Positions 24,976-38,167 of a stretch of 64,000 bases of DNA are shown one piece after another. A program made the translations under genes and the position numbers. How positions within the stretch are numbered: the first letter of the stretch is position 1; each line of letters starts with the position of its first letter. The notes below the pieces were generated by a model. It made no database searches. It saw only the letters and a program-made list of their open reading frames with translations, and was not told the origin of the DNA. The stretch lies in NCBI RefSeq assembly GCF_017654315.1, contig NZ_CP072203.1, positions 1,054,001 to 1,118,000 of the forward strand, written 5' to 3'. The DNA is from Gordonia polyisoprenivorans. GTDB taxonomy: Bacteria > Actinomycetota > Actinomycetes > Mycobacteriales > Mycobacteriaceae.

Positions 24976-25123
24976 GGCCTTCTCCGTTCGGAATGTTCCA
25001 CCTGCCGCAACGGCAGGTGACGTGGAGTACGACGAGTGTCGAACATGGTATGGACTGCCTGTGTCGAGGGCACCGTCCGGCCGACCATCCTTGGTCGGTA
25101 AAAGAATTTGCTGCAACTCCTAG

Positions 25124-25149
25124 ACGTAACTATTACTATAGTTACACTA
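25124..25149. promoter_or_regulatory. AT-rich cluster element, copy 5 (best inverted repeat)
   Basis: Contains TAACTAT-TACT-ATAGTTA, a perfect 7-bp inverted repeat with a 4-base spacer (25127-25144). Fifteen of these bases (CTATTACTATAGTTA) also occur upstream of the dehydrogenase at 5332. The site is 31-56 bp before ATG 25180. A dimeric repressor operator overlapping the promoter is the simplest reading. Confidence 0.7.
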
Positions 25150-25179
25150 GTTTTACCTAGTTATCACGAGGAGATTTTC

Positions 25180-26292
25180 ATGATTCAGCCGACAGTCCAA
25201 GACTTCACCGACTTCTTTCTCAATGAATACGAGCCTGCTTCGGGTCCGATCGAGGAGACCGACGTCATCCCTGAGGACCTGCTGAAGAGGGCGGCCGATG
25301 CGGGCGCTTACCGGATGACGATTCCGACCGAGTACGGCGGCTGGGGCATGACGGTGCGCGAGTACCTCCCGTACCTCGAGGGCGCAGCGCAGGGTCACGG
25401 CTCGGGCCGCATGTTGGTGCACCTGACCAACGGCGTGTGGCGCCCATTGGTGCGTTTCGGAAACGAGCAGCAGCGGTCGATCGTGCGCGACATCGCCGCC
25501 GGAGAGGCCGTAGTGGCCTTCTGCCTCACCGAAGCCGCAGGCGGCACGGGGAGGGACCTGAAGTCCGAAGCCCGCCGCGACGGCAATGGCTGGCGGATGT
25601 CGGGCGAGAAGCATCTGATCACCTTCGCCGACAGAGCCGACCACTTCATCCTGGTGGTCGCTACGGACGATCGTGGTGCCAAGGATTCGCTCACGGCGTT
25701 CCTGGTTCCTCGAAACACCGAGGGTTTCGAGATCGATGCGACTCAGCACACCATGGGTCTGCACGGCACCGGTCACGCCTGGTTGCGCTACAACGACATG
25801 TTCGTCGACGACAGTATGCGGCTCGGAGAGCTGGGCGAGGGTCTCGACGTGGCGCTCACCTTCCTCGACTACAGCCGTGTCTCACTGTCGAACTGCATGG
25901 TCGGCCTCGCGCAGCGCGCGCTCGACGAGGCTAAGGAGTTCGCCAAGCGGCGCGTCACTTTCGGTAAGCCGATCTCCGAGCGCCAGGCCATCCAAACGCA
26001 CCTCGCCGACATGTACGCCGACGTGAACGCCGGTCGCGGCCTCGTCCGCACCGCCGCCGAGCTGTGTGACGCGGGTGCCGACTTCACTGCGGCAGCGGCG
26101 ACGGCAAAGCTGTTCAACCTGAACATGGTCGGCCGCGTGACCGATCTGTCGCTTCGCGTGCACGGTGGGTACGGCTACACCAAGGAGGCACCCATCGAGC
26201 GCATCTACCGTGATGCTCGCGGATTCTGGTTCGAGGAGGGCACCGCCGAGATTCAGCGGCTCGTCATCGCTCGGCACGTGCTCGAATCCTGA
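25180..26292 (+). CDS. Acyl-CoA dehydrogenase (370 aa)
   Basis: Acyl-CoA dehydrogenase with VAFCLTEAAGGTGRDLKSEA in place of the usual TEPGSGSD loop, HGGYGYTKEAPIERIYRDARG and FEEGTAEIQRLVIARHVLE, which retains a Glu at the catalytic-base position. ATG 25180 follows CGAGGAG. A monocistronic unit, with its own AT-rich element upstream and a strong terminator after it. Confidence 0.92.
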   Translation: MIQPTVQDFTDFFLNEYEPASGPIEETDVIPEDLLKRAADAGAYRMTIPTEYGGWGMTVREYLPYLEGAAQGHGSGRMLVHLTNGVWRPLVRFGNEQQRSIVRDIAAGEAVVAFCLTEAAGGTGRDLKSEARRDGNGWRMSGEKHLITFADRADHFILVVATDDRGAKDSLTAFLVPRNTEGFEIDATQHTMGLHGTGHAWLRYNDMFVDDSMRLGELGEGLDVALTFLDYSRVSLSNCMVGLAQRALDEAKEFAKRRVTFGKPISERQAIQTHLADMYADVNAGRGLVRTAAELCDAGADFTAAAATAKLFNLNMVGRVTDLSLRVHGGYGYTKEAPIERIYRDARGFWFEEGTAEIQRLVIARHVLES

Positions 26293-26310
26293 CACCTGCC
26301 ACATCCATTC

Positions 26311-26361
26311 ACGACGAGAACCGTGGCCCGGCAACACTTGCCGGGCCACGGTTCTCGTCGT
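26311..26361. terminator. Bidirectional stem-loop terminator between convergent genes
   Basis: A 24-bp perfect inverted repeat (26311-26334 with 26338-26361) around the loop CAC, located 18 bp after the dehydrogenase stop and 7 bp before the MFS stop on the opposite strand. Its position between convergent genes indicates a shared intrinsic-type terminator, although the T-run is missing, as is usual in actinobacteria. Confidence 0.85.
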
Positions 26362-26368
26362 AGGAGAG

Positions 26369-27817
26369 TCACGGCGTGAGTGCGTCGTCGACGGTAGGAG
26401 TGGGTGTGACGGCCAGCTCGTCGACCAGGCGCTTCTGGCTCGTCGACGGGATGGCCAGTGCGGCGATGGACACCAGGGCCATTGTCGCGGACATCGTCCC
26501 GAACGCCCAGGTGAAGCCCGACTCGGCTGGGACACCATCGGTGCTCACATGCGCGGTGATGATCATCGACGACACAGCCGCACCGATCGATCCGCCCACG
26601 TTACGGATGTTGGCGTTCATGCCACTGGCGACGCCGGTCTGGTCCGGCGGCACCGCAGCGACGACGAGACCCGCCATGCACGAGATGACCATGCCTTGTC
26701 CTATACCCAGGATGCCGTTGGCGATGTAGAAGTGCGCCAACGTGCCGTGTGCGAACGTCAGCACGGCCATGGCACCCGACATCGTCAGGCATCCGACGAA
26801 CACGACCGTCCGGGCACCGACCTTGCGGGCGAGCCAGGGCGAGAACAAGCCCATCAGCACCATGGCCACGGCCGCGGGCAGGACGAGTAGGCCCGACGTC
26901 GTGACCGAGGCGCTGAAGCCGTACCCGTTCGAGCTGTCGACCTGGGCGAACTGTGGCAGGAAGGCGAACGCCGAGAACAGTGTCCATCCCAGCACCAGCG
27001 CTACGACGTTGCAGGTCCACACCGCGCGCTTGCTCATCATCGCCATGTCGATGAGAGGGGCCTTGCTGTGTAGCTCGACATACACCCACGCCCAGCACAG
27101 CAGCGCGGACAGCAGGATCAGTCCGATCACCAGTGGCGACGCCCAGCCCCAGCGCGATCCCTGGCTGAGCGGCACCAGGAAGGCGACGAGCCAGCTCGAC
27201 AGCAGCACCGCGGGCAGCACACTGATGGGCGCAGGTGTTCGTACGGGAGAGTCCGGGACGAGCAGATAGGCCGCGATCGCAGCCGCCGAGGTGACAACGA
27301 ACGGCACCCAGAACAGGCCTGTGTAGGCGAACACGTCGAGGATCGGGCCCGCGACGACGACGCCGACCCCGCCCCCGACAGCCACCACGGAAGCCGTGAA
27401 CCCCACGGCTCCGGCGATGTTCTGTTCGGGGAACTCGTCACGGATGATGCCGAAGCACAGTGGCACGGCACCGCCGCCCACACCCTGCAGGATTCGCGCG
27501 GCGATCAGCCAGCCGATGGTCGGGGCGAAGACCCCCGCGAGGCAGCCGAGCGCCAGTGCACACATCGACACGACGAGCATGCGTTCCTTGCCGACGCGAT
27601 CGCCCATCCGTCCGATGATCGGCGTGCAGACGGCCGCCGAGATCAGGTAGGCGGTCAACACCCAGGTGACCGTGTTGCGGTCGGTGCCGAGGTGCTCGCT
27701 GATCAGGCCCAGCACCGGCGAGGTCAACGACTGCAGCAAGGAGAAGCCGATCGCGGCAGCGATCAGCACCACGTAGGTCAGCCGATAGTGGGACCTCCGA
27801 CGAGATGCTCTTGGCAC
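26369..27817 (-). CDS. MFS transporter, DHA2-like with 14 predicted TM segments (482 aa)
   Basis: Polytopic membrane protein. The signature GRMGDRVGKERMLV lies in the loop between TM2 and TM3, followed by ARILQGVGGGAVP (motif C-like region), and many Ala/Val/Leu helices. The length and arrangement fit 14-TM drug:H+ antiporter (DHA2) proteins. In a catabolic cluster it may take up the substrate or export toxic intermediates; direction cannot be told. GTG 27817 is preceded by GGAAGG. It lies 61 bp downstream of the mycofactocin-type SDR gene on the same strand. Confidence 0.88.
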   Translation of the reverse strand: MPRASRRRSHYRLTYVVLIAAAIGFSLLQSLTSPVLGLISEHLGTDRNTVTWVLTAYLISAAVCTPIIGRMGDRVGKERMLVVSMCALALGCLAGVFAPTIGWLIAARILQGVGGGAVPLCFGIIRDEFPEQNIAGAVGFTASVVAVGGGVGVVVAGPILDVFAYTGLFWVPFVVTSAAAIAAYLLVPDSPVRTPAPISVLPAVLLSSWLVAFLVPLSQGSRWGWASPLVIGLILLSALLCWAWVYVELHSKAPLIDMAMMSKRAVWTCNVVALVLGWTLFSAFAFLPQFAQVDSSNGYGFSASVTTSGLLVLPAAVAMVLMGLFSPWLARKVGARTVVFVGCLTMSGAMAVLTFAHGTLAHFYIANGILGIGQGMVISCMAGLVVAAVPPDQTGVASGMNANIRNVGGSIGAAVSSMIITAHVSTDGVPAESGFTWAFGTMSATMALVSIAALAIPSTSQKRLVDELAVTPTPTVDDALTP

Positions 27818-27878
27818 GGCTGACCTTCCGGTGGCTGATGGTGCGGAACGGGAACGTCGCCACCCCGTGGACCGGTGA

Positions 27879-28727
27879 TCAGGGAGTGGCGGTGCCACCG
27901 TCGACGGGCAACATCGCACCGGAGATCAGCCGGCCGAGCGGGGAGACGAGGAAAGCAATCGCCTCCGAGACGTCCTCGGGCTCGACGTAGGGGTTGCGCA
28001 TCGGCGACATCGCCGCGGCTCGCTGCAGGAACAGGTCCTCGTCGGGAGCGTCGGTGCCGGGCACGTAGAGGCGGCGGATGCCGTCGTTGTCGAACATGGG
28101 GGTATTGCAGTTGCCGGGCGTGACGGCGTTGACGCGAATCTTGTAGCGGCCCAGTTCCTTGGCCAGAGTGCGAACCAAGCCGAGAACTGCATGCTTGGAG
28201 GCGACGTAGGGGGCAAGGTTCGGGATACCTGAGGCCGAGGCCGTCGAACCGGTCAGCACGATGGCTCCGCCCTCGCCCTGCTCGATCATCTGGGGAATCG
28301 CAGCCTTGACGGTGTGCCACACGCCGATGATGTTGACATCGATGACATTGCGGAAGTCCTCGTCGTCGAGCTCCCATGTCTTCTTGTAGTTGTTGATGAT
28401 GCCGGCGTTGCCGAGGACGATGTCCACTCTGCCGAAGGCGTCGAGTCCGCTCCTGAGGGCGGCGTCGACCTCCTCCTGCGAGCGGGCGTCTGCCTCGATG
28501 GCGACCATCTCCCCGCCGGCTTCCTTGACGAGTCGTTCGGTTTCCACGAGGTCTTCCGGCGTCGCCCCGTCGAACGGAACGGTGTCGATCTGACGGCACA
28601 GGTCGAAGCCGATGATCTTCGCGCCGGATTTGGCGAGCCGGACCGCATGTGATCGCCCTTGACCACGGGCCGCGCCCGAGATGAATGCGACGGATCGCTG
28701 AAGATCGGGCTGTGTCGGTGTGCTCAT
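27879..28727 (-). CDS. Mycofactocin-coupled short-chain dehydrogenase (282 aa)
   Basis: SDR with SGAARGQGRSHAVRLA and the insertion diagnostic of the mycofactocin-coupled family: FDLCRQIDTVPFDGATPEDL directly after strand 2. Active-site segments are TGSTASASG and YVASKHA. Enzymes of this family hold NAD(H) tightly and need mycofactocin as the external electron carrier. Its presence 4.5 kb from an mft locus is meaningful, but that locus is broken here, so function depends on mycofactocin made elsewhere. AAGGAACGAG precedes ATG 28727. It probably forms an operon with the MFS gene. Confidence 0.93.
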   Translation of the reverse strand: MSTPTQPDLQRSVAFISGAARGQGRSHAVRLAKSGAKIIGFDLCRQIDTVPFDGATPEDLVETERLVKEAGGEMVAIEADARSQEEVDAALRSGLDAFGRVDIVLGNAGIINNYKKTWELDDEDFRNVIDVNIIGVWHTVKAAIPQMIEQGEGGAIVLTGSTASASGIPNLAPYVASKHAVLGLVRTLAKELGRYKIRVNAVTPGNCNTPMFDNDGIRRLYVPGTDAPDEDLFLQRAAAMSPMRNPYVEPEDVSEAIAFLVSPLGRLISGAMLPVDGGTATP

Positions 28728-28754
28728 GTCTCGTTCCTTCGGTCGGAATGTTCA

Positions 28755-28780
28755 GTAATCTATGACAACTATAGTTAGAG
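28755..28780. promoter_or_regulatory. AT-rich cluster element, copy 6 (upstream of mycofactocin-coupled SDR)
   Basis: GTAATCTATGACAACTATAG plus TTAGAG; contains the perfect palindrome AACTATAGTT. On the minus strand CATAGAT lies in -10 position for the SDR gene. It shares AATCTAT and CTATAGTTA with the copies at 5285 and 25124. Confidence 0.62.
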
Positions 28781-28876
28781 AAAGCGGAAAGGTCGCGATG
28801 TTGGCCGTTTCGTAGTATCAGTCACTTCTGCTCGGGGGCGCGATGGAAATTCCTCTGGCCGGAACGGTCGGCGAGC

Positions 28877-29518
28877 TTGTGTGATGTCGTCAATCTCATC
28901 TCCTGCCTCGTTCGGCCGTCGACCGGCGAGGTGTGTCTCGATGACGAGACCCTGGTCGGGTTGCAGCCCTACGAGGTTGCCCGGCGGGGCGTCGTGCGGA
29001 CGTTGCAGAGCGCTCGCCTGATTCCGACCTTCGACCTGGTAACCAACGTGATGTTGGGTCGAGCGGCGTACTCGAGGGCGAACCTACTCGGGGAGTTCTT
29101 CCACTCTCCGCGCAGCCGCACCGACGATGACGAAGCGTATGCATTCGCCCTCGGCTTGCTCGAGCTGATGGGTGTGCACGAGCATGCCTTCACGCGGGCC
29201 GCCGATCTCCCGTACGGCGTGCTCAGGCGCGCCGAGATCGCCCGTGCCTTGGCCCTGGAGCCGGCATTTCTGCTGCTCGACGAGCCGGGGGCCGGACTGA
29301 GCGGCGGAGAGCGTGACGAGATCGCCGCCGCGATCCGTGCCGTCGCGGCACGGGGTGTCGGTGTCGTCCTGATCGACCACAACGTCCAGTTCGTCGCCTC
29401 GGTGTGCAGGCGGTTGATCGTGCTGTCCGGCGGGTGAATCCTCGCCGAGGGCGAGACCGAGGAAGTTCTTGCGCGCCGTGACGTCGTCACTGCCTACCTG
29501 GGAGGAGCTGCACTGTGA
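28877..29518 (+). pseudogene. Branched-chain-type ABC transporter ATPase (LivG-like), degraded
   Basis: The frame carries LivG features: LISCLVRPSTGEV, VARRGVVRTLQSARLIPTFD (Q-loop region), ALALEPAFLLLDEPGAGLS (Walker B, D-loop) and VVLIDHNVQFVASVC (H-loop region). The Walker A (GPNGAGKT) that should come just before VVNLIS is gone, and the N-terminus is missing. An in-frame TGA at 29435-29437 replaces an expected codon in SGG-x-ILAEGE; the frame then continues through ILAEGETEEVLA to 29518. Both defects would abolish ATP binding or truncate the protein. No permease or binding-protein genes are nearby. Confidence 0.82.
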
Positions 29519-30234
29519 GCACTCTGTCGATCGACGATGTGACGGCCGGTTACGGTCACGGCGACGTGCTGCACGGTGTATGTCTAGAGGTGCCGGAGGG
29601 ATCGGCGGTCGGAGTGCTCGGTGCCAATGGTGCAGGAAAGACCACGTTGATGAGGGTCCTGTCCGGTCAGCTCCGGCCTCGCAGTGGCACGGTCACCCTC
29701 GACGGCAAGAGCTTCACCGACTGACGCCGTCCACCGCGGTGCGTCGGGGGATCGTCCTGGTGGCCGAAGGTCACGAGATCGTGGGATTCTTGTCGGTCGC
29801 CGAGAACATCGAGTTGGGTGCCTACCGGTTCTGGCCGCGATCGTCGCGAGCCGTCATCCATGACAACCGCGACCGCATCTACGACCTGTTCCCCATATTG
29901 GCCGACAAGCGCAACCAGCTGGCGTCCTTGCTTTCGGGTGGGCAGCAGCAGATGGTCGCAATCGGCCGGGCGTTGATGTCGCAGCCGCGGCTGATCTTGC
30001 TCGACGAACCGTCGTTCGGTCTGGCCCCTGTCGTCGTCGAACAGATCTACGAGCGCCTGGCACTGCTGCGGCGCGAGACGCAGCTCTCCATGGTGATCGT
30101 CGAGCAGAACAGCGATCTCGCTCTGGAATTCTGTGACACCACCAGCGTCATGCGTCTGGGTGAATTCGTTGCGCGCTCTGCCGGGGGAGCGACTGACCGA
30201 AGACGAGCTCAAAGCAGCATATTTCGGTGCCTGA
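29515..30234 (+). pseudogene. Branched-chain-type ABC transporter ATPase (LivF-like), two frameshifts
   Basis: GTG 29515 overlaps the LivG-like stop. The first 70 residues include an intact Walker A (GANGAGKTTLMRVLSG) and then stop at 29722-29724. The protein resumes in another frame with RRGIVLVAEGHEIVGFLSV, LLSGGQQQMVAIGRALMSQP (signature), LILLDEPSFGLAP (Walker B) and VIVEQNSDLAL. A second shift near 30175 is needed to reach the normal end (LTEDELKAAYFGA, TGA at 30232-30234). The two shifts compensate overall, but the product between them is lost in a single reading. Confidence 0.85.
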
Positions 30235-30272
30235 CGGTTCGGCAGGGGCGCGAGACTGCCCCTGCCGAACCG

Positions 30273-30832
30273 TCAGGTGTCCGAACCGAGCATTCTGGTG
30301 GCGAGCTCGCCGTCCCGACGCCAGATTGCGCACGAGTCGATAACCCGCGGTTCTTTCTCGACGACGCGAAGCATCCACCGTTCGTGGGGGAGCGCCTGGG
30401 CCTCGATGTCGTTCTCAACCACGCGCGCCGCGAACGACAGCGAGACGACGGTCCCGATGTGTTGAGCCATCGTGTGCAGGTGGTTGCATCCGCGATTGCC
30501 ACCGAAGCGCTCGCGGAGCTCGCGAAAATATCCCGGGCCAATCGTCAGGCCGATCAGTTGGTCCATGGCTCGCAGGGTGCTGGGGCACGTGCGATGGGGA
30601 TGTCCCACCATGTCGGCCTCGACCGTATCGATCCTCATGCTGGCTTCGTCGACGTCGACCGTCAGCTTCATGTCGTGGACGGTTGCGAAACCGCCCGGCC
30701 CGAAGGAGTCGTCCTGCAGGGTCGCCACCGCTCGGATCGTCTGCGGGTCCTGCCGGTAGAGCCGGGTCCGGACGTCTCGGTCGTAGAGGGTATCGGGGGT
30801 TCTCGGTATTGCCGGGCTGGCTCGTCCGGCAT
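30273..30832 (-). pseudogene. DUF2889 family protein with probable N-terminal frameshift
   Basis: The body matches DUF2889: FGPGGFATVHDMKLTVDV, HPHRTCPSTLRAMDQLIG and RFGGNRGCNHLHTMAQHIG. Members often sit in steroid and aromatic-acid catabolic clusters; biochemical role unknown. The main frame has no plausible start near its N-terminus. ATG 30832 in another frame gives MPDEPARQYRE, and switching frame in the G5 run at 30795-30799 continues as RTPDTLYDRDVRTRLYR, a sensible family N-terminus. A one-base indel in this homopolymer is therefore likely, either real or a sequencing error. Confidence 0.68.
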
Positions 30833-30874
30833 CTGGTGATTGGTCGATGATGTATTCCTTTCGGAGGGAAACAT

Positions 30875-30896
30875 GGCTATTGTGATCATAGATAAG
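30875..30896. promoter_or_regulatory. AT-rich cluster element, copy 7 (upstream of acyl-CoA synthetase)
   Basis: GGCTATTGTGATCATAGATA then AG; on the minus strand TTATCTATGATCACAATAG, resembling ATCTATGA-ACTATAG of the other copies. It lies between the DUF2889 gene and the synthetase, 47-68 bp before GTG 30943. Confidence 0.5.
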
Positions 30897-30942
30897 GTCT
30901 GGTCGACATTCCAGAGCTGTGCAATACAAGGAGGAATTACTC

Positions 30943-32553
30943 GTGGCGCTGCGTCCGCTGACTCTCGACATGATCGAGGCCAACTATGCGAAGGGCATCT
31001 GGCAGGACCGTCCGCTCCACTCGGTCATCGACGACTACGCCTGCCGCCGACCCGACGCGCCTGCCGTCGCCGACCAGCACGAGCGGTTGACATACGCCGA
31101 ACTCGTCCGCCGCAGCCATTCGGTGGCGACGTGGCTACTTAAGCAGGGATTGGAGCCGGGTGCGTGCGTCGCCCTCCAAACGCCCAACAGTGTTTCGCTG
31201 GCCATCACCCACCTTGCCTGCGATCGCGCCGACCTCATGTTCCTCCCGCTGTCTAACGCGTGGCGGGGTGCCGAGGTAATTCATCTTCTGAAGACGTCCC
31301 AGGCTCGGATCGTGATGGTGCCGCCTACGACTCCCGAGTTCGACTACCTGCAGTTGATCGAGAAGATTCGGCCCCAGCTACCACATCTGCAATCAGTAGG
31401 GACCAGCCGCGGCGATCGCAGTGGCAGCGACTTCGCCTTCGAGGAAATCTCGGTTGCCGATACCCCGCAGGTCTCGATCGAGCGAGATCCGAATGTCCCC
31501 CGCTTCGTCATGGTCACCTCGGGCACCACGGCGCTGCCCAAGATGTCGCAGTGGACCGACAACAACCTGTGGAACTTCATGCAGCGGTTCATCCGTAGCT
31601 GCAACGTGACAGCGGACGACGTTGCAGTCGGACTGGCACCCGCCAACACTGGAGCCACCGGGTATGTCTTCGCCGTCCTGGGGCCCCTTCTCGCAGGGGC
31701 AAGCTCGGTCCTGCTCGAGCACTGGGATGTCGAGGAGGCGCTCGACCTCCTCGAATCGGAGAGGGCCACACTGGCCACCGCCATTCCAACGCAGGTCGTC
31801 AAGCTCCTGCAGGATTCTCGCCTCGACTCGCGAGACTTCACGCCCCTGCGCGCATTCACGAACGCGGGTGCCGCGATGCCTCCGGAGGCGGCCGAGATGA
31901 TGGAGAAGGTGTTCGGCTGCGTCGGGCACGTCTGCTACGGCACGTCCGACGGCGGTGTCCCCACAATGACCGCCATCACCGACCCGCCGGAAAAGCGTCA
32001 CTTCACCGTCGGTAAGCCGGATGTCGACAGCGATGTGCGGTTGGTCGATGCGCTCGGCGAGGACGTGCTTCCCGGGCAGTCCGGCGAGATCCTCTGGCGC
32101 GGGCCGACGAAGAGCTTCGGTTACTTCAACGAGCCACACCACACCGAGGCCGCTTTCGGTGATGACGGGTGGTACTCGTCCGGTGATCTGGGGCGTATCG
32201 ACGCGGAGGGCTACCTGAGCATCGTCGGACGCGCCAAGGACCTGATCATCCGTGGTGGCCAGAACATCAGCCCCCAGGAACTAGAGCTTCACCTCTACCG
32301 GCACCCCGCTATCGCGGAGGTCTCCGTCATCGGGATCCCCGACGCGGTGTACGGCGAGCGAACGTGTGCGTGCGTAGTGCTCAAGGCCGGTAAGCACCTG
32401 ACGTTGTCGGAATTGACGGACTTTCTCGAGGATCAGGAGGTTGCAAAGTTCAAATTTCCCGAGCGTCTCGAAATTTTCGACGACCTACCCAAGAGCGCGG
32501 GGGGCAAGATCACCAAGGTCGAGCTTCGCGCGGCGGTTGCAGCGCGAAGCTGA
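30943..32553 (+). CDS. AMP-forming acyl-CoA synthetase (536 aa)
   Basis: ANL-superfamily ligase, complete: [15 protein letters not shown] (P-loop variant, ALPKM in place of GxPKG), [42 protein letters not shown] and the C-terminal Lys in [16 protein letters not shown] 30943 is preceded by AAGGAGGA; the earlier GTG at 30919 lies upstream of that site. It is the only intact gene between 28.8 and 36.9 kb. Its 3' end overlaps the damaged C-terminal end of mftR (convergent), marking a rearrangement junction. Confidence 0.92.
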
Positions 32554-33081
32554 GACTGTTCGGCGCTCCCACGCAACGGCGTAGGGACGGCGCTTCGGTC
32601 CGACCCGACCTGCGCGTAGCCGTTCGACCGGTCGCGACGCCGCATGATCTTCAGTGCGGAGTCCGGTGTAGAGCGGGTGGGTGCCCTCGTACATGACCAT
32701 CGAATAGCTTTGCAGTGCAGGATTGCTCAGTATCAACGCCATACGTTGCCGGTGCACCGCGGCTTCTTCGGGGAAAGTGTTGAACTGCAACAACGCGGAA
32801 CGTAGTCCATCGGCGAGCTCTATGTCCGCGGGTAGGCCGTTCAGATGTGCCCTCAGCGCTGCGAGTTGAGTGTCGAAATCTCCCCAAGGAACCGCATTCT
32901 TGGAGGGGAAGTAACGGAAGAACGTGCGTCGAGCGATGCCTGCCGCGTCGGCTATGTCGTCGACGCTGGTCTCCTCGAATCCCTTCGAGGAGAGCAGTTC
33001 TATGCCCACATCGCTCAACTCACTCCTCGTGGTCGACGGACGTCGACCCACCCGGGGTGCAGACTTTCTGCTTTTCGCCAT
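32485..33081 (-). CDS. mftR: TetR-family mycofactocin regulator MftR, degraded C-terminus
   Basis: The N-terminal 125 residues match MftR closely: [20 protein letters not shown] helix-turn-helix, then [20 protein letters not shown] and [19 protein letters not shown]. MftR senses acyl-CoAs and represses mft genes. After SYSMVMYEG the sequence no longer resembles the family and becomes Arg-rich, and the frame runs 69 bp into the convergent synthetase gene. I infer that most of the ligand-domain C-terminus has been deleted and replaced by junction sequence. ATG 33081 is chosen over upstream starts because MAKSRKS is the normal beginning. Confidence 0.72.
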
Positions 33082-33187
33082 CTTTCTTCTCCGAACTCTG
33101 TCTTTATGCACCGGGTGTCATTGCTGTAGTGATTCAAGCCGCTGTTCGTTCCGAGTGTGGCCTACCCACTACCACTGGAGGTTTCAG

Positions 33188-33307
33188 ATGTCGAAGAGCA
33201 ACGAGAATGCCGTGGTCGGTACCGCTGTCGTCGAGTCCGATCTGGTCGAAGAGTCGTTGGTGGAGGAAGTATCCATCGACGGCATGTGCGGCGTGTACCG
33301 ATCATGA
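33188..33307 (+). CDS. mftA: Mycofactocin precursor peptide MftA with a two-residue C-terminal extension (39 aa)
   Basis: The peptide ends in EESLVEEVSIDGMCGVY-RS. The core IDGMCGVY identifies MftA. In characterised MftA peptides the Val-Tyr pair is the C-terminus, because MftC decarboxylates the terminal Tyr. Here the codon after Tyr is CGA instead of a stop, adding Arg-Ser before TGA at 33305-33307; a TGA-to-CGA change would explain it exactly. Such a peptide should be a poor MftC substrate. ATG 33188 follows TGGAGG. The stop overlaps the mftB start (ATGA). Confidence 0.92.
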   Translation: MSKSNENAVVGTAVVESDLVEESLVEEVSIDGMCGVYRS

Positions 33308-33590
33308 CTACCGCAGTGCAGGATTCCTTCGATCTGGATCTGCCGTGGGCATTGCATCCGCATGTGGCGCTGCGTCCCGAGTCGTTCGGGGCGCTGCTGT
33401 ACCACTTCGGGACTCGCAAGCTCTCGTTTCCTGAAGAACCGCACGATTGTGGCGATCATCACCTCACCTTCCTGATCATCCGAACATGCGCGCCGCGATC
33501 GCGGCCGCAGGTATTTCGGAATCGGGGATGGCCCCGTACACCAAAGCGTTTGCAACGCTGGCCGATTCGCGGATGATCACCGAGCTTTGA
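33304..33590 (+). pseudogene. mftB: mftB (RiPP recognition protein), two frameshifts
   Basis: MftB is the small PqqD-like protein that presents MftA to MftC. The start is normal (FDLDLPWALHPHVALRPESF, then GALLYHFGTRKLSF). At about 33430 the family sequence moves to the +1 frame (LKNRTIVAIITS), and at 33467-33473 it moves again (DHPNMRAAIAAAGISESG, ending SRMITEL, TGA 33588-33590). With two single-base insertions removed, the product would be about 94 residues, the normal family length. The unshifted frame yields an unrelated Arg-rich tail. Confidence 0.88.
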
Positions 33591-33688
33591 CTTTCCCGGT
33601 CACGTCGAGCCCCACGAGGGTTCGACCGCGCCCTGTCCGTCGCAGCCTCGCCGGACACCACTCCTGAAATCTCAGACGAGGATCTCCC

Positions 33689-34869
33689 ATGACTTCTACT
33701 CTCGAAAGGCCCGCTCCGGTAGGCAAATTGGTCGACCAGTTCGAACTCGGACTCGACGCGCCCATCTGCTTGACGTGGGAGCTGACCTACGCCTGCAATC
33801 TGTCGTGTGTGCACTGTCTGAGCTCGTCGGGTCGCCGTGATGCGCGCGAACTGAGCACCGAGCAGTGCAAGTCGATCATCGACGAGCTGCAGAAGATGCA
33901 GGTGTTCTACGTCAATATCGGTGGTGGGGAGCCGACGGTGCGCTCGGACTTCTGGGAGCTCGTCGATTATGCGACCGCGCATCAGGTAGGTGTGAAGTTC
34001 TCCACCAACGGGGTCAAGATTGACAAGAAGGTGGCCGCGCGGTTGGCCGCGTCGGATTACGTCGATATCCAGATCTCCATCGACGGCGCAACCGCCGAGG
34101 TCAACGATGCGGTCCGCGGACCCGGTTCGTTCGACATGGCGTGCCGGGCGTTGGAGAACTTGAAGGAGGCCGGCTTTCGGGACGCGAGGATCTCGGTCGT
34201 CGTCACCCGACACAACGTGAGTCAGCTCGACGACTTCAAAGCGTCAGCAGCGCGAGCTGTACAACTCAACTGGCTCGTCGCCAACGGTGAGGGTGTGTTG
34301 ACCGGGGATTCGTTCTTCCATCTCTCGGCGTTCGGTGACGCTCTGCCCGGGCTCAACCTCTGTGGTGCCGGGCGGGTGGTGTGTCTGATCGATCCGATCG
34401 GCGACGTGTACGCGTGCCCGTTCGCCATTCACGAGAACTTCCTCGCCGGCAACATCGTCCGCGACGCGCGTCCTGCGACAGCGACATCACCCGGAATGGG
34501 CGGGTTCCAGTCGGTGTGGCAGACATCGGAGTTGTTCCAGGATCTGCGCTCGCCGCAGACTTCGGGCGCGCGCACCAAGTGCGCCCACTTCGACGCGTGC
34601 CGTGGCGGATGTATGGCGCGAAATTCTTCACGGGCCTGCCGATGGACGGGCCGGATCCCGAATGTGTCATCGGGAACGGTGAATTGGCGTTGGTGGCGGC
34701 GGGGGAGATCCCCAAGTCCAGTGTCGACCATTCCCGTACCGGTCAGCGCAAGACCCCACGAAAGTCGGTGCCGCTCACGTTGATGATGCGTCCGCCGGCG
34801 AAGATCTGTGACGAGAATCCGCTCGCAGGAATGGAAGCAGAAACAGTCATGAAACAGAAGGCACAGTAA
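33689..34869 (+). pseudogene. mftC: mftC (radical SAM mycofactocin maturase), deletion plus frameshift
   Basis: Radical SAM motif intact (TYACNLSCVHCLSSSG), as is VNIGGGEPTVRSDF. Three defects follow. First, after SQLDDFKA about 30 residues of the family are missing; the frame passes through a remnant that in another frame reads QQRELYN, then regains WLVANGE thanks to a short duplication near 34263-34272. Second, codon 34571-34573 is CGC (Arg) where a SPASM-domain Fe-S Cys is expected in GA-x-TKC. Third, a one-base deletion near 34619 shifts the frame; the true C-terminus continues as KFFTGLPMDGPDPECV and ends at 34869. An active enzyme is not plausible. Confidence 0.88.
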
Positions 34870-34871
34870 CG

Positions 34872-35818
34872 GCCAAGAGTGCGTGGTTCGAGACCGTTGC
34901 CGAAGCGCAACGGCGTGCGAAGAAGCGTCTACCGAGTCCGTGTACGCCGCTCTGGTGGCAGGCTCGGAGCGCGGACTGACGATCGACGACAACATGGCGG
35001 CGTTCGGTGAACTCGACTTCGCCCCGCACGTGGCCGGGCTGTCGGACAAGCGTGATCTGTCGACGACGGTGATGGGGCAGACGCTGTCGTTCCCGGTGAT
35101 GATCTCTCCGACGGGCGTGCAGGCGGTGCACCCGGACGGTGAGGTCGCCGTCGCGAGAGCTACTGCAGCGCGGGGTATTCCGATCGGGATCTCCTCGTTC
35201 GCCAGCAAGTCCGTCGAGGAGGTCGCGGCGGCGAATCCGCAGACCTTCTTTCAGATGTACTGGGTCGGATCGCGTGAGATCTTGTTGCAGCGGATGGAGC
35301 GCGCACGCGCAGCCGGGGCGGTCGGGCTGATCATGACCCTGGACTGGTCGTTCTCCAACGGCCGAGATTGGGGTGGCCCGTCGATCCCGGAGAAGATGGA
35401 CCTCAGGGCGATGGTCCAGTTCGCGCCGGAAGGCGTCGTACGCCCGAAGTGGTTGTGGGAGTTCGCCAAGACCGGAAAGATTCCCGATCTGACGACCCCG
35501 AACCTGACGCCGCCCACGGGCGGTCCGGCCCCGGCATTCTTCGGGGCGTACGGCGAATGGATGGGCACCCCGTTGCCGACGTGGGAGGACGTGGCATGGC
35601 TGCGTGAGCAGTGGGATGGGCCGTTCATGCTCAAGGGCGTGATGCGCGTCGACGATGCGGTGGGTGATCAGGTCGAGATCACCCTCGACGGCGGGATTCG
35701 GCGCGGCAGCGACGTGGTGAAGGCGCTGGCGTTGGGTGCGCGAGCGGTGCTGATCGGGCGGGCATATCTGTGGGGCCTGTCGGCGAACGGTCAGGCGGGC
35801 GTGGAGAACGTACTCGAC
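34872..35818 (+). pseudogene. mftD: mftD (FMN-dependent mycofactocin oxidase), frameshift, internal deletion and IS truncation
   Basis: Family sequence begins AKSAWFETVAEAQRRAKKRL without a start codon in that frame, then a missing base near 34934 moves it to the frame of SVYAALVAGSERGLT. The body is good (VMGQTLSFPVMISPTGVQAV, LDWSFSNGRDWGGP, EWMGTPLPTWEDVAWL). At about 35657 MRVDDA joins directly to VGDQVEITLDGGIRRG: roughly 38 residues are lost in frame, including the SNHGG loop with the catalytic His. The gene ends at GVENVLD, where the insertion element begins and supplies the stop. MftD would normally oxidise AHDP to form the redox-active core. Confidence 0.87.
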
Positions 35819-35886
35819 TGAGGTTCCCCAGTTTGAGTGGACACCCGAGATAGTGGGGCTATGGGCCCTGCTGGAAGGATGTCACT

Positions 35887-36213
35887 ATGTCGAGGACGCG
35901 TCGGTCGTTTACGCCTGAGTTCAAGGCGGAGGCTGCTCGTCGGGTGATTGATGGCGGCCGCCCGATCTCTGAGGTCGCTCGTGAGTTGAACGTGCATGAG
36001 AATCTGCTGGGCAAATGGGTTCGCGCCGAACGCATTCGCGACGGAGTGATCACCGAGGGGCGGGCAGCTCCGCCCCTCGGTGAGCTCAGTGCCGGTGAGC
36101 GCGCGGAGTTGGTGCGGTTACGTGCCGAGGCCGCCGAGAAGGACCGCGACATTGCGTTCCTGAAAAAGTCTCGGCGTACTTTGCGGCACAGCAACACCGG
36201 TGAGCTGTTATGA
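35887..36213 (+). pseudogene. IS3-family transposase OrfA (helix-turn-helix), altered C-terminus
   Basis: MSRTRRSFTPEFKAEAARRV followed by ISEVARELNVHENLLGKWV is the typical OrfA helix-turn-helix, then a leucine-zipper-like segment RLRAEAAEKDRDIAFLKK. The expected ending (KASAYFAAQQHR) appears only in another frame (SAYFAAQQHR), so a one-base deletion near 36169 has changed the tail. OrfA binds the element ends; the DNA-binding part is intact. Confidence 0.8.
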
Positions 36214-36828
36214 ACTCATCGCCGCGGAGTGCGCCGGCCATGACATCACTGCTCTTGTTGAACTGCTGGGGGTTTCACGCTCGGGATACTATGCGTGGGC
36301 GGGTCGTCAGCAGCGTGGCGAACTCACCGCGCGACAGCAGCGTCGCCGTGATCTCGAAGTCAAGGTTGTGGCTCACTGGAAGAGATCGCAACGCACCTAC
36401 GGCTCCCCGCGGATCACCGCCGACTTGCACGACGAGGGCGTGTCGGTCTCGGAGAATACCGTCGCCAAGATCATGGCCGAGATGGGTATCGAGGGCATCA
36501 GCCCCCGCACGTTCACGGTCACGACGACCGTGGTCGATCCGACGGCGTCGTTCCCACCCGACCGGGTGGGGCGGGTCTTTGATCGGGGCCGTCTTGATGC
36601 TGTCTGGACCTCGGATATCACTGGGATAACGCCGGCGCTGAGTCGTTGTGGTCGACGGTCAAGCACGAATATTACAAGCGACACGCGTTCACCACTCGCG
36701 CGAATCTTACTGCAGGACTTGACAATTATATCCGCTTCTACAATCATGACAGGAGGCACAGTTCGTTAGGGATGATCTCACCCATCTACTTCGAGATCAG
36801 CTCACACGCAAGTCAGCAATCAAGCTGA
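36200..36828 (+). pseudogene. IS3-family transposase OrfB (DDE integrase), catalytic core deleted
   Basis: The N-terminal part is normal (ELLGVSRSGYYAWAGRQQRG, TYGSPRITADLHDEG), up to RLDAVWTSDIT with the first catalytic Asp. About 90-100 residues are then missing, including the second Asp. The end of the gene follows in another frame: DNAGAESLWSTVKHEYYKRH (third catalytic Glu) and FYNHDRRHSSLGMISP, stop 36826-36828. The element therefore cannot transpose itself. Confidence 0.85.
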
Positions 36829-36856
36829 CCGTGTCCATCTTTTCGCGGGAGCCCCA

Positions 36857-37366
36857 GGCATCAAGGTGTCCGATGACGTGCTCGACGTCCATTGGCGACG
36901 CAGTCACATTGGACCACGTAGAGCACTCTCAGCTGCATTTGCCTGCCGGCCTCAACCGCTCGAGAAGTACTGGGGGTCAGAGATGACGACTATTACTACC
37001 TGTGGTCCTGCTTGGTCGACGTTCGCAATAGGCGGTCTGCCCACTCGTCACGGGACATTGGGAAGTGCCCAGGCTGATCCATCCCGGCGTTTCTGGAGAG
37101 CTCAGGTTGTGAGCGCACCGGCGCGGCAGCTGGAGCGTGTTGCCGACGACCTCGTCGAGCACCGCTTCGACGACAGTGGCCACCTCGTTCCGATCGACGA
37201 TCCCGCCCACGTTGCTGCCGTCATCGCCTGCACAGCGGGTGACGGCCCATCGGTGCAGGACCCCCCATGAGGAGAGCCCGGACGCCCATGGTGTGCTTGG
37301 CGGCGCCCGGCGTGGATCGACGGTGGCTCCCGATGCCCAATCACTCCAGCCGTCAACGGCCTCGGC
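36857..37366. other. Gene-free stretch right of the IS element
   Basis: No supported gene was found. A 134-codon open frame (36866-37270, plus) has no recognisable family, no good ribosome site and an unusual composition. mftE and mftF, which normally follow mftD, are not present in any frame, so the right flank of the element is not the continuation of the mft locus. The stretch may be a remnant of a deleted gene. Confidence 0.5.
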
Positions 37367-38167
37367 TCAGCCCTTCGTCAACGCAATCGCCGCCTCGCCG
37401 GTGTAGGTGAGGTAGGTGAAGGACTCCTGGAAGTAGAGGTTGACCGTGTCGCCGTCGTGCGAGTCGTAGCCGATGGAGACATCCTGACCGATGGTCAGCT
37501 CGAAATCGCCACCACGGGTGGACAATACAAATGCGCCGGAGATTGCAGGCGCCCACACGATGTCGCCGTCGATCAACCGTTGGATGTGCTGGCGGATCGG
37601 GTAGCCGTGGTTGGAGGTCTCATTGATCAGGTTGTAGACCTCGGCGGAGACGGCGATCGAATACGGGCCGTCGATGGAGGCGAGCTTGAGGGTCGAGAGG
37701 GCCTGGCTGAAGGCCTCCGGGTAGTCGCGGACATCCTCCGGCAACGCGATGGGTGCTGCGCTGGTCTCGGCGCGAATGCCGGAGATCCCCGCGGCCGCAT
37801 AGCCTTCGAAGATCGCTTGATCTTCGGCAAGCGCGAGTTGGCGCGCGGCGTCGACGACCGGATCCCAGTCGGAGTCCTCGGCGCCGCGGTCGACGTCGTC
37901 GATGGCCTCGCGGGTGACGGTGAACGGAACCTTCAGTTCGACGAGCGGCTGCACATGGCGCTGAAAGGCGAGAATGCCGTCGGCGGGGGAATCGATCTTG
38001 GATCGATGCCCGCGGGTGACCGACGACGCCTCGAGTCCGAGGGGGCCCTTGACGTCGACGATCCGACGTCCGGCGCTGTTGCGCTTGAACGAGCGGGTCG
38101 CCTCTTCTTCGATCGCCTCCCACGCCGAGGTGGAGATGGGCGCGAGTTCGCGATGCAGGTTGTTCAT
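37367..38167 (-). CDS. Family 1 encapsulin shell protein (266 aa)
   Basis: Encapsulin nanocompartment shell protein with the HK97 phage-capsid fold: MNNLHRELAPISTSAWEAIE opening, RRIVDVKGPLGLEASSVTRG (E-loop region), and DIVWAPAISGAFVLSTRGGD and LTIGQDVSIGYDSHDG (A- and P-domain strands). Typical length 265-270. Sixty or more copies self-assemble into a shell of about 24 nm or larger that packages cargo bearing a short C-terminal peptide. It follows the DyP peroxidase by 48 bp on the same strand, which is the cargo gene. Role: oxidative-stress protection inferred from the cargo. Confidence 0.96.
   Translation of the reverse strand: MNNLHRELAPISTSAWEAIEEEATRSFKRNSAGRRIVDVKGPLGLEASSVTRGHRSKIDSPADGILAFQRHVQPLVELKVPFTVTREAIDDVDRGAEDSDWDPVVDAARQLALAEDQAIFEGYAAAGISGIRAETSAAPIALPEDVRDYPEAFSQALSTLKLASIDGPYSIAVSAEVYNLINETSNHGYPIRQHIQRLIDGDIVWAPAISGAFVLSTRGGDFELTIGQDVSIGYDSHDGDTVNLYFQESFTYLTYTGEAAIALTKG

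Follow-up and report, generated by a model that had tools for sequence, protein, structure and literature searches.

A decaying mycofactocin gene block of probable Rhodococcus origin in a Gordonia genome with a complete native cluster

Introduction

In the mycofactocin pathway, MftC acts on the C-terminal Val-Tyr of MftA. Among the reports on this pathway listed by full-text searches, none describes a decayed mft cluster in its title or opening abstract lines. The SPASM motif of MftC is given as C-x2-C-x5-C-x3-C (PMC3023750).

Two intact loci serve here as the main points of comparison. The native cluster of the same genome (L014) has the same gene families as the block described below, in the complete order mftR-A-B-C-D-E-F-G, and its MftG belongs to the Gordonia-type family TIGR04542. 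The locus of Rhodococcus sp. 14-1411-2a (L027, L148), which is the nearest by DNA among the eight genomes searched, shares with the block the order mftR-A-B-C-D and, unlike the block, is intact; it also has a second tandem mftD, with mftE/F/G located further on. The tandem pair of mftD genes occupies positions 10301-12636 of L148.

Within the genus Gordonia, mftC scores over its cut-off in 58 of 59 genomes, the exception (G010) having none, and additional mft material is found in three of the 59: the genome analyzed here, G016, and G015. In G016 the second copy, which is located on a 118-kb contig, has an mftC frame open over 461 aa; that in G015 consists of native-like mftD and mftC pieces in scrambled order. 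At L146:9767-10331 of the latter genome, mftD residues 11-80 are joined to mftC residues 256-384, reversed with respect to the normal operon. Two of the three extra copies are broken, which suggests that second mft copies are acquired occasionally but seldom retained. The block described here would provide a clean and datable case of an acquired cofactor pathway that was not retained since the host already made the cofactor.

Results

The analyzed DNA (the window, 64,000 nucleotides) covers chromosome positions 1054001-1118000 of a 6.03-Mb single-contig genome of Gordonia polyisoprenivorans. At window positions 32485-36856 it contains an mftR-A-B-C-D pseudogene block followed by an IS3-family element; by gene order and sequence, the block is a homolog by descent of the mycofactocin cluster. 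Lesions were called from an alignment of the block with 14 intact loci, in detail against that of Rhodococcus sp. 14-1411-2a (L027), and the lesion junctions were additionally compared with three Rhodococcus loci. The features, in window coordinates, are the following.

32485..33111, minus strand: mftR remnant, MftR-like N-terminal two thirds (to 32683) plus an unrelated C-terminus; TIGR03968
33188..33307, plus strand: mftA remnant, stop lost (TGA to CGA), product ending in VYRS
33304..33590, plus strand: mftB remnant, +1 at 33427 and +1 at 33467; first 45 codons match TIGR03967
33689..34869, plus strand: mftC remnant with -95, +5, Cys to Arg, and -1; open ORF 33689-34783, TIGR03962
34869..35818, plus strand: mftD remnant with start codon ACG, -1, -111, and 3' end lost at the IS
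35816..36856, plus strand: IS3-family element standing in place of the mftD 3' end, about 265 bp missing internally
37366..38167, minus strand: encapsulin gene, right edge of a variable region of about 71 kb

At the left end of the block, the 208-aa ORF of mftR matches MftR at residues 20-144 only (profile positions 2-127 of 190) and scores 182.6 bits with TIGR03968, under the cut-off of 224.9; nucleotide homology to the Rhodococcus locus ends at 32683, and the last third of the gene is lost. The MftA stop codon TGA reads CGA, and the product ends in VYRS instead of the required Val-Tyr, which is directly followed by a stop in all 80 relatives. Neither of the two single-base insertions in mftB occurs in any of the 14 relatives, and the gene has no single reading frame.

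The mftC remnant has lost 95 bp after 34242 and gained 5 bp (CAACT) at 34262-34266, two changes that restore the frame in combination, and it lacks one further base after 34617; each of the three is found in 0 of 14 relatives. In addition, the codon at 34571-34573 encodes Arg at a position where all 14 aligned relatives have Cys. This residue is the first Cys of C-x2-C-x5-C-x3-C, so that the motif is incomplete in the block; a script found it in 79 of 80 relatives, and L029, the only row left unparsed, carries the codon for this Cys. Another candidate lesion in mftC, an insert of 18 bp at 34471-34488, was dropped, being common to L028, L030, L031, and L033.

In mftD, the start codon ATG reads ACG at 34869, a lesion absent from the preliminary description, and no in-frame ATG, GTG, or TTG is found back to the stop at 34809. 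Further downstream, one base is missing after 34934, and an in-frame deletion of 111 bp after 35659 removes the SNHGG motif; both deletions are found in none of the 14 relatives, and SNHGG is present in 72 of 73 relatives, the exception being cut by a contig end. The gene breaks off at the junction with the IS at about 35818, and no complete MftD, having a start codon, an uninterrupted frame, and SNHGG, is present in the block. Three apparent control failures among the relatives proved to be artefacts: L032 lies at a contig end, and in L064 and L068 the start is displaced downstream by a few codons. The IS3-family copy is itself a remnant, the missing internal stretch of about 265 bp being seen in comparison with a sister copy at chromosome positions 2959390-2960696, to which its two parts are 97.5% and 94% identical.

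These comparisons bear out the lesions that had been read from the sequence alone in the preliminary description, namely the unrelated C-terminus of mftR, the lost stop of mftA, the two frameshifts of mftB, the internal deletion, Cys loss, and frameshift of mftC, and the frameshift, internal deletion, and IS truncation of mftD. Its further statement that mftE and mftF are missing holds in one respect: a tblastn search with the native proteins (E<=1) finds no MftE, MftF, or MftG in the window, and mftE is over its cut-off genome-wide in the native cluster only. As separate lesions, however, the two losses do not stand. In the donor-type locus L148, mftE/F are located about 8 kb beyond mftD, after the second tandem mftD, and therefore one truncation at the right end removes both.

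The MftC ORF scores 482.6 against the TIGR03962 cut-off of 265, and the MftD ORF 509.2 against the NCBIfam cut-off of 470.85. Because both exceed their cut-offs, automatic annotation would name them intact, and annotators should be warned that MftC and MftD ORFs of this kind can belong to a dead cluster.

The single-base lesions could in principle be errors of sequencing or assembly, some of the genes being really intact. Indeed, four indels involve one base each and were judged from the assembly alone. However, these changes lie in runs of at most three identical bases, and other types of lesion are present as well: the indels of 95, 111, and 5 bp, the loss of a start codon, of a stop codon, and of a cysteine, and the IS. 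Moreover, the collinear flanks comprise 33 ORFs of G. polyisoprenivorans NBRC 16320, of which 32 are intact in the host (the match to the remaining one begins only at residue 72); the native mft genes are likewise intact (8/8), and error is for this reason very unlikely.

Selection was assessed at 1229 codon positions that are invariant in eight relatives, with only mftC and mftD counted. Of the changes in the window copy at these positions, 15 are replacements and 9 are silent; for three sisters, L027, L029, and L033, the replacement:silent counts are 1:9, 0:18, and 3:5, respectively. The replacement excess is supported against the three sisters pooled (4 to 32, p 4.5e-5) and singly against L027 (p 0.008) and L029 (p 1.4e-5), whereas it is not significant against L033 alone, the nearest sister (p 0.25). 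The neutral expectation at invariant sites is 90% replacement, and the observed 15:9 therefore indicates that constraint still acted over most of the branch. Nei-Gojobori branch values of dN and dS are 0.0146 and 0.19 for the window copy, 0.0056 and 0.14 for L033, and 0.0091 and 0.39 for L027. A rough two-phase estimate made by hand, with a constrained ratio of about 0.03 assumed before the decay, suggests that constraint ended about 0.01 neutral substitutions per site ago, that is, a fairly recent loss. A GC-to-AT mutation bias was not seen in the window copy (11 against 9). Thus the decay of the locus, which had been called advanced, is so with regard to function but not to age, as it corresponds to an estimated neutral divergence of about 1%. 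The MftC and MftD ORFs, still over their cut-offs, also speak against the term.

It is hardly probable that the shortened genes were repurposed, for example as a truncated MftD or as a chimeric MftR with some remaining regulatory role. The MftR remnant does keep its DNA-binding part, mftC is open for 364 codons, and mftD is open for 312 codons from 34883; on the other hand, mftD is devoid of an in-frame start codon, and the copy shows an excess rather than a deficit of replacement changes. The occurrence of these altered proteins in relatives, under purifying selection, had been named as evidence that would speak against decay. Among the best 120 of 7997 and 8000 scored candidates for MftC and MftD (from 5.8 billion proteins), the altered forms occur in one contig only, presumably that of this genome. 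Genuine pseudogenisation, as originally proposed, is supported by the several types of lesions, their uniqueness among 14 relatives, the replacement excess, and the intact core genes nearby. The block combines several inactivating lesions with relaxed selection compared to intact relatives, the latter being not significant against L033 alone.

The suggested search of the genome for a second, complete mft cluster was successful: the native cluster at about 5.0 Mb has MftA, B, C, D, E, F, G, and R (8/8) over NCBIfam cut-offs, and the window copy is therefore redundant. The native MftC has an identical counterpart in NBRC 16320, and the other native mft proteins are 93-99% identical. A quick maximum-likelihood tree was built for 83 MftC rows (80 loci kept of 591 found and three others), using the in-frame part of the window mftC and SH-aLRT support without bootstrap. 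In this tree the window MftC groups with three Rhodococcus loci (support 96), and this group is included in a clade of 14 rows (98), in which all named members belong to Rhodococcus/Rhodococcoides except for one Antrihabitans; the native MftC falls with Gordonia. Nucleotide identity of the window copy with Rhodococcus sp. 14-1411-2a is 86-88% for mftC-D and 79% for mftR-B. Each of the three Rhodococcus genomes grouping with it in the tree has one mftC over the cut-off, and hence the donor type is their ordinary cluster. A near-identity search of plasmids yielded one short mftA-B match only; a plasmid origin was set aside, as a distant search found mft clusters on actinobacterial plasmids at about 70-73%, none of them close. 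A duplication of the native cluster inside this genome, an event that may happen in the genus given the scrambled native-looking second piece in G015, has a negligible chance of accounting for the block, which by segment is about 70-81% identical to the native copy versus 86-88% to Rhodococcus over mftC-D, and which the tree separates from the native copy.

Discussion

We conclude that the block is almost certainly a redundant mycofactocin cluster from the Rhodococcus fascians clade, on which selection was lost owing to the native cluster. Such an explanation is ordinary, and the block is a well-documented case of a redundant xenolog that is decaying. The cluster probably passed horizontally from the R. 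fascians clade into Gordonia, either G. polyisoprenivorans itself or a close relative; the complete native cluster would have made the acquired copy redundant, and selection would have lapsed. The block is truncated at both ends, in the mftR tail on the left and in mftD at the IS on the right, and the right-hand part of the cluster may have been removed by the IS or by an adjacent deletion. To judge from the sequence, no mft product is likely to be made from the block, since any one of three defects would be sufficient to block the pathway: an MftA without the Val-Tyr end; an MftC in which the SPASM cluster motif and the C-terminus are incomplete; and an MftD whose start codon, frame, and SNHGG are all lost.

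Several observations run against the decay of a Rhodococcus-derived cluster. The MftC and MftD ORFs pass the family cut-offs, and the -95/+5 pair and the -111 deletion keep the frame. The replacement excess is not significant against L033 alone (3:5, p 0.25). Finally, none of the three Rhodococcus genomes has a long match to the region 25000-32600.

The host chromosome is collinear with that of NBRC 16320 at 96-98% up to position 1,020,279, one 16-kb insertion apart, and collinearity resumes at 92-94% from 1,091,366, which is window position 37366. In between, about 71 kb in the host replaces 10.5 kb in NBRC 16320, as defined by comparison with one close relative, on one contig, using matches longer than 150 bp. 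Both the mft block and the IS are located at the right edge of this region, transposase genes are found near its left edge, and NBRC 16320 has no copy of the block. NBRC 16320 likewise lacks a long match to the adjoining 7.6 kb on the left side (25000-32600).

The same 71-kb region contains a gene for a mycofactocin-coupled SDR (27879-28727) that scores over its family cut-off. One could imagine that the mft block travelled in a catabolic package comprising the cofactor and the enzymes needing it, and that the cofactor half, dispensable in a host that already had mft genes, decays first, the client enzymes persisting. We consider this scenario unlikely; if true, it would offer a direct snapshot of a client being kept and its cofactor shed after transfer.

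Some minor observations concern the surroundings of the block. The strain-variable part of the window at positions 1-28727 encodes a catabolic set comprising acyl-CoA dehydrogenases, a thiolase, a CoA ligase, F420-dependent LLM oxidoreductases, and the mycofactocin-coupled SDR. At 28877-29724, the match of a LivG-like ATPase ORF to its model begins only at position 47 of 255. As judged by eye on the translations, the LivF-like gene that continues to about 30200 seems to be split across two frames; decay may thus reach beyond the mft block. The stretch of about 500 bp between the IS and the encapsulin gene (36857-37365) contains an ORF without a Pfam match. The segment 37071-37119 is repeated at two other sites in the genome, one of which (1026830) adjoins the transposase genes of the left edge. 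The insertion of about 16 kb seen in comparison with NBRC 16320, which is separate from the 71-kb region and located at chromosome positions 984843-1000767, starts exactly at a tRNA-Ser gene, as integrative elements do.
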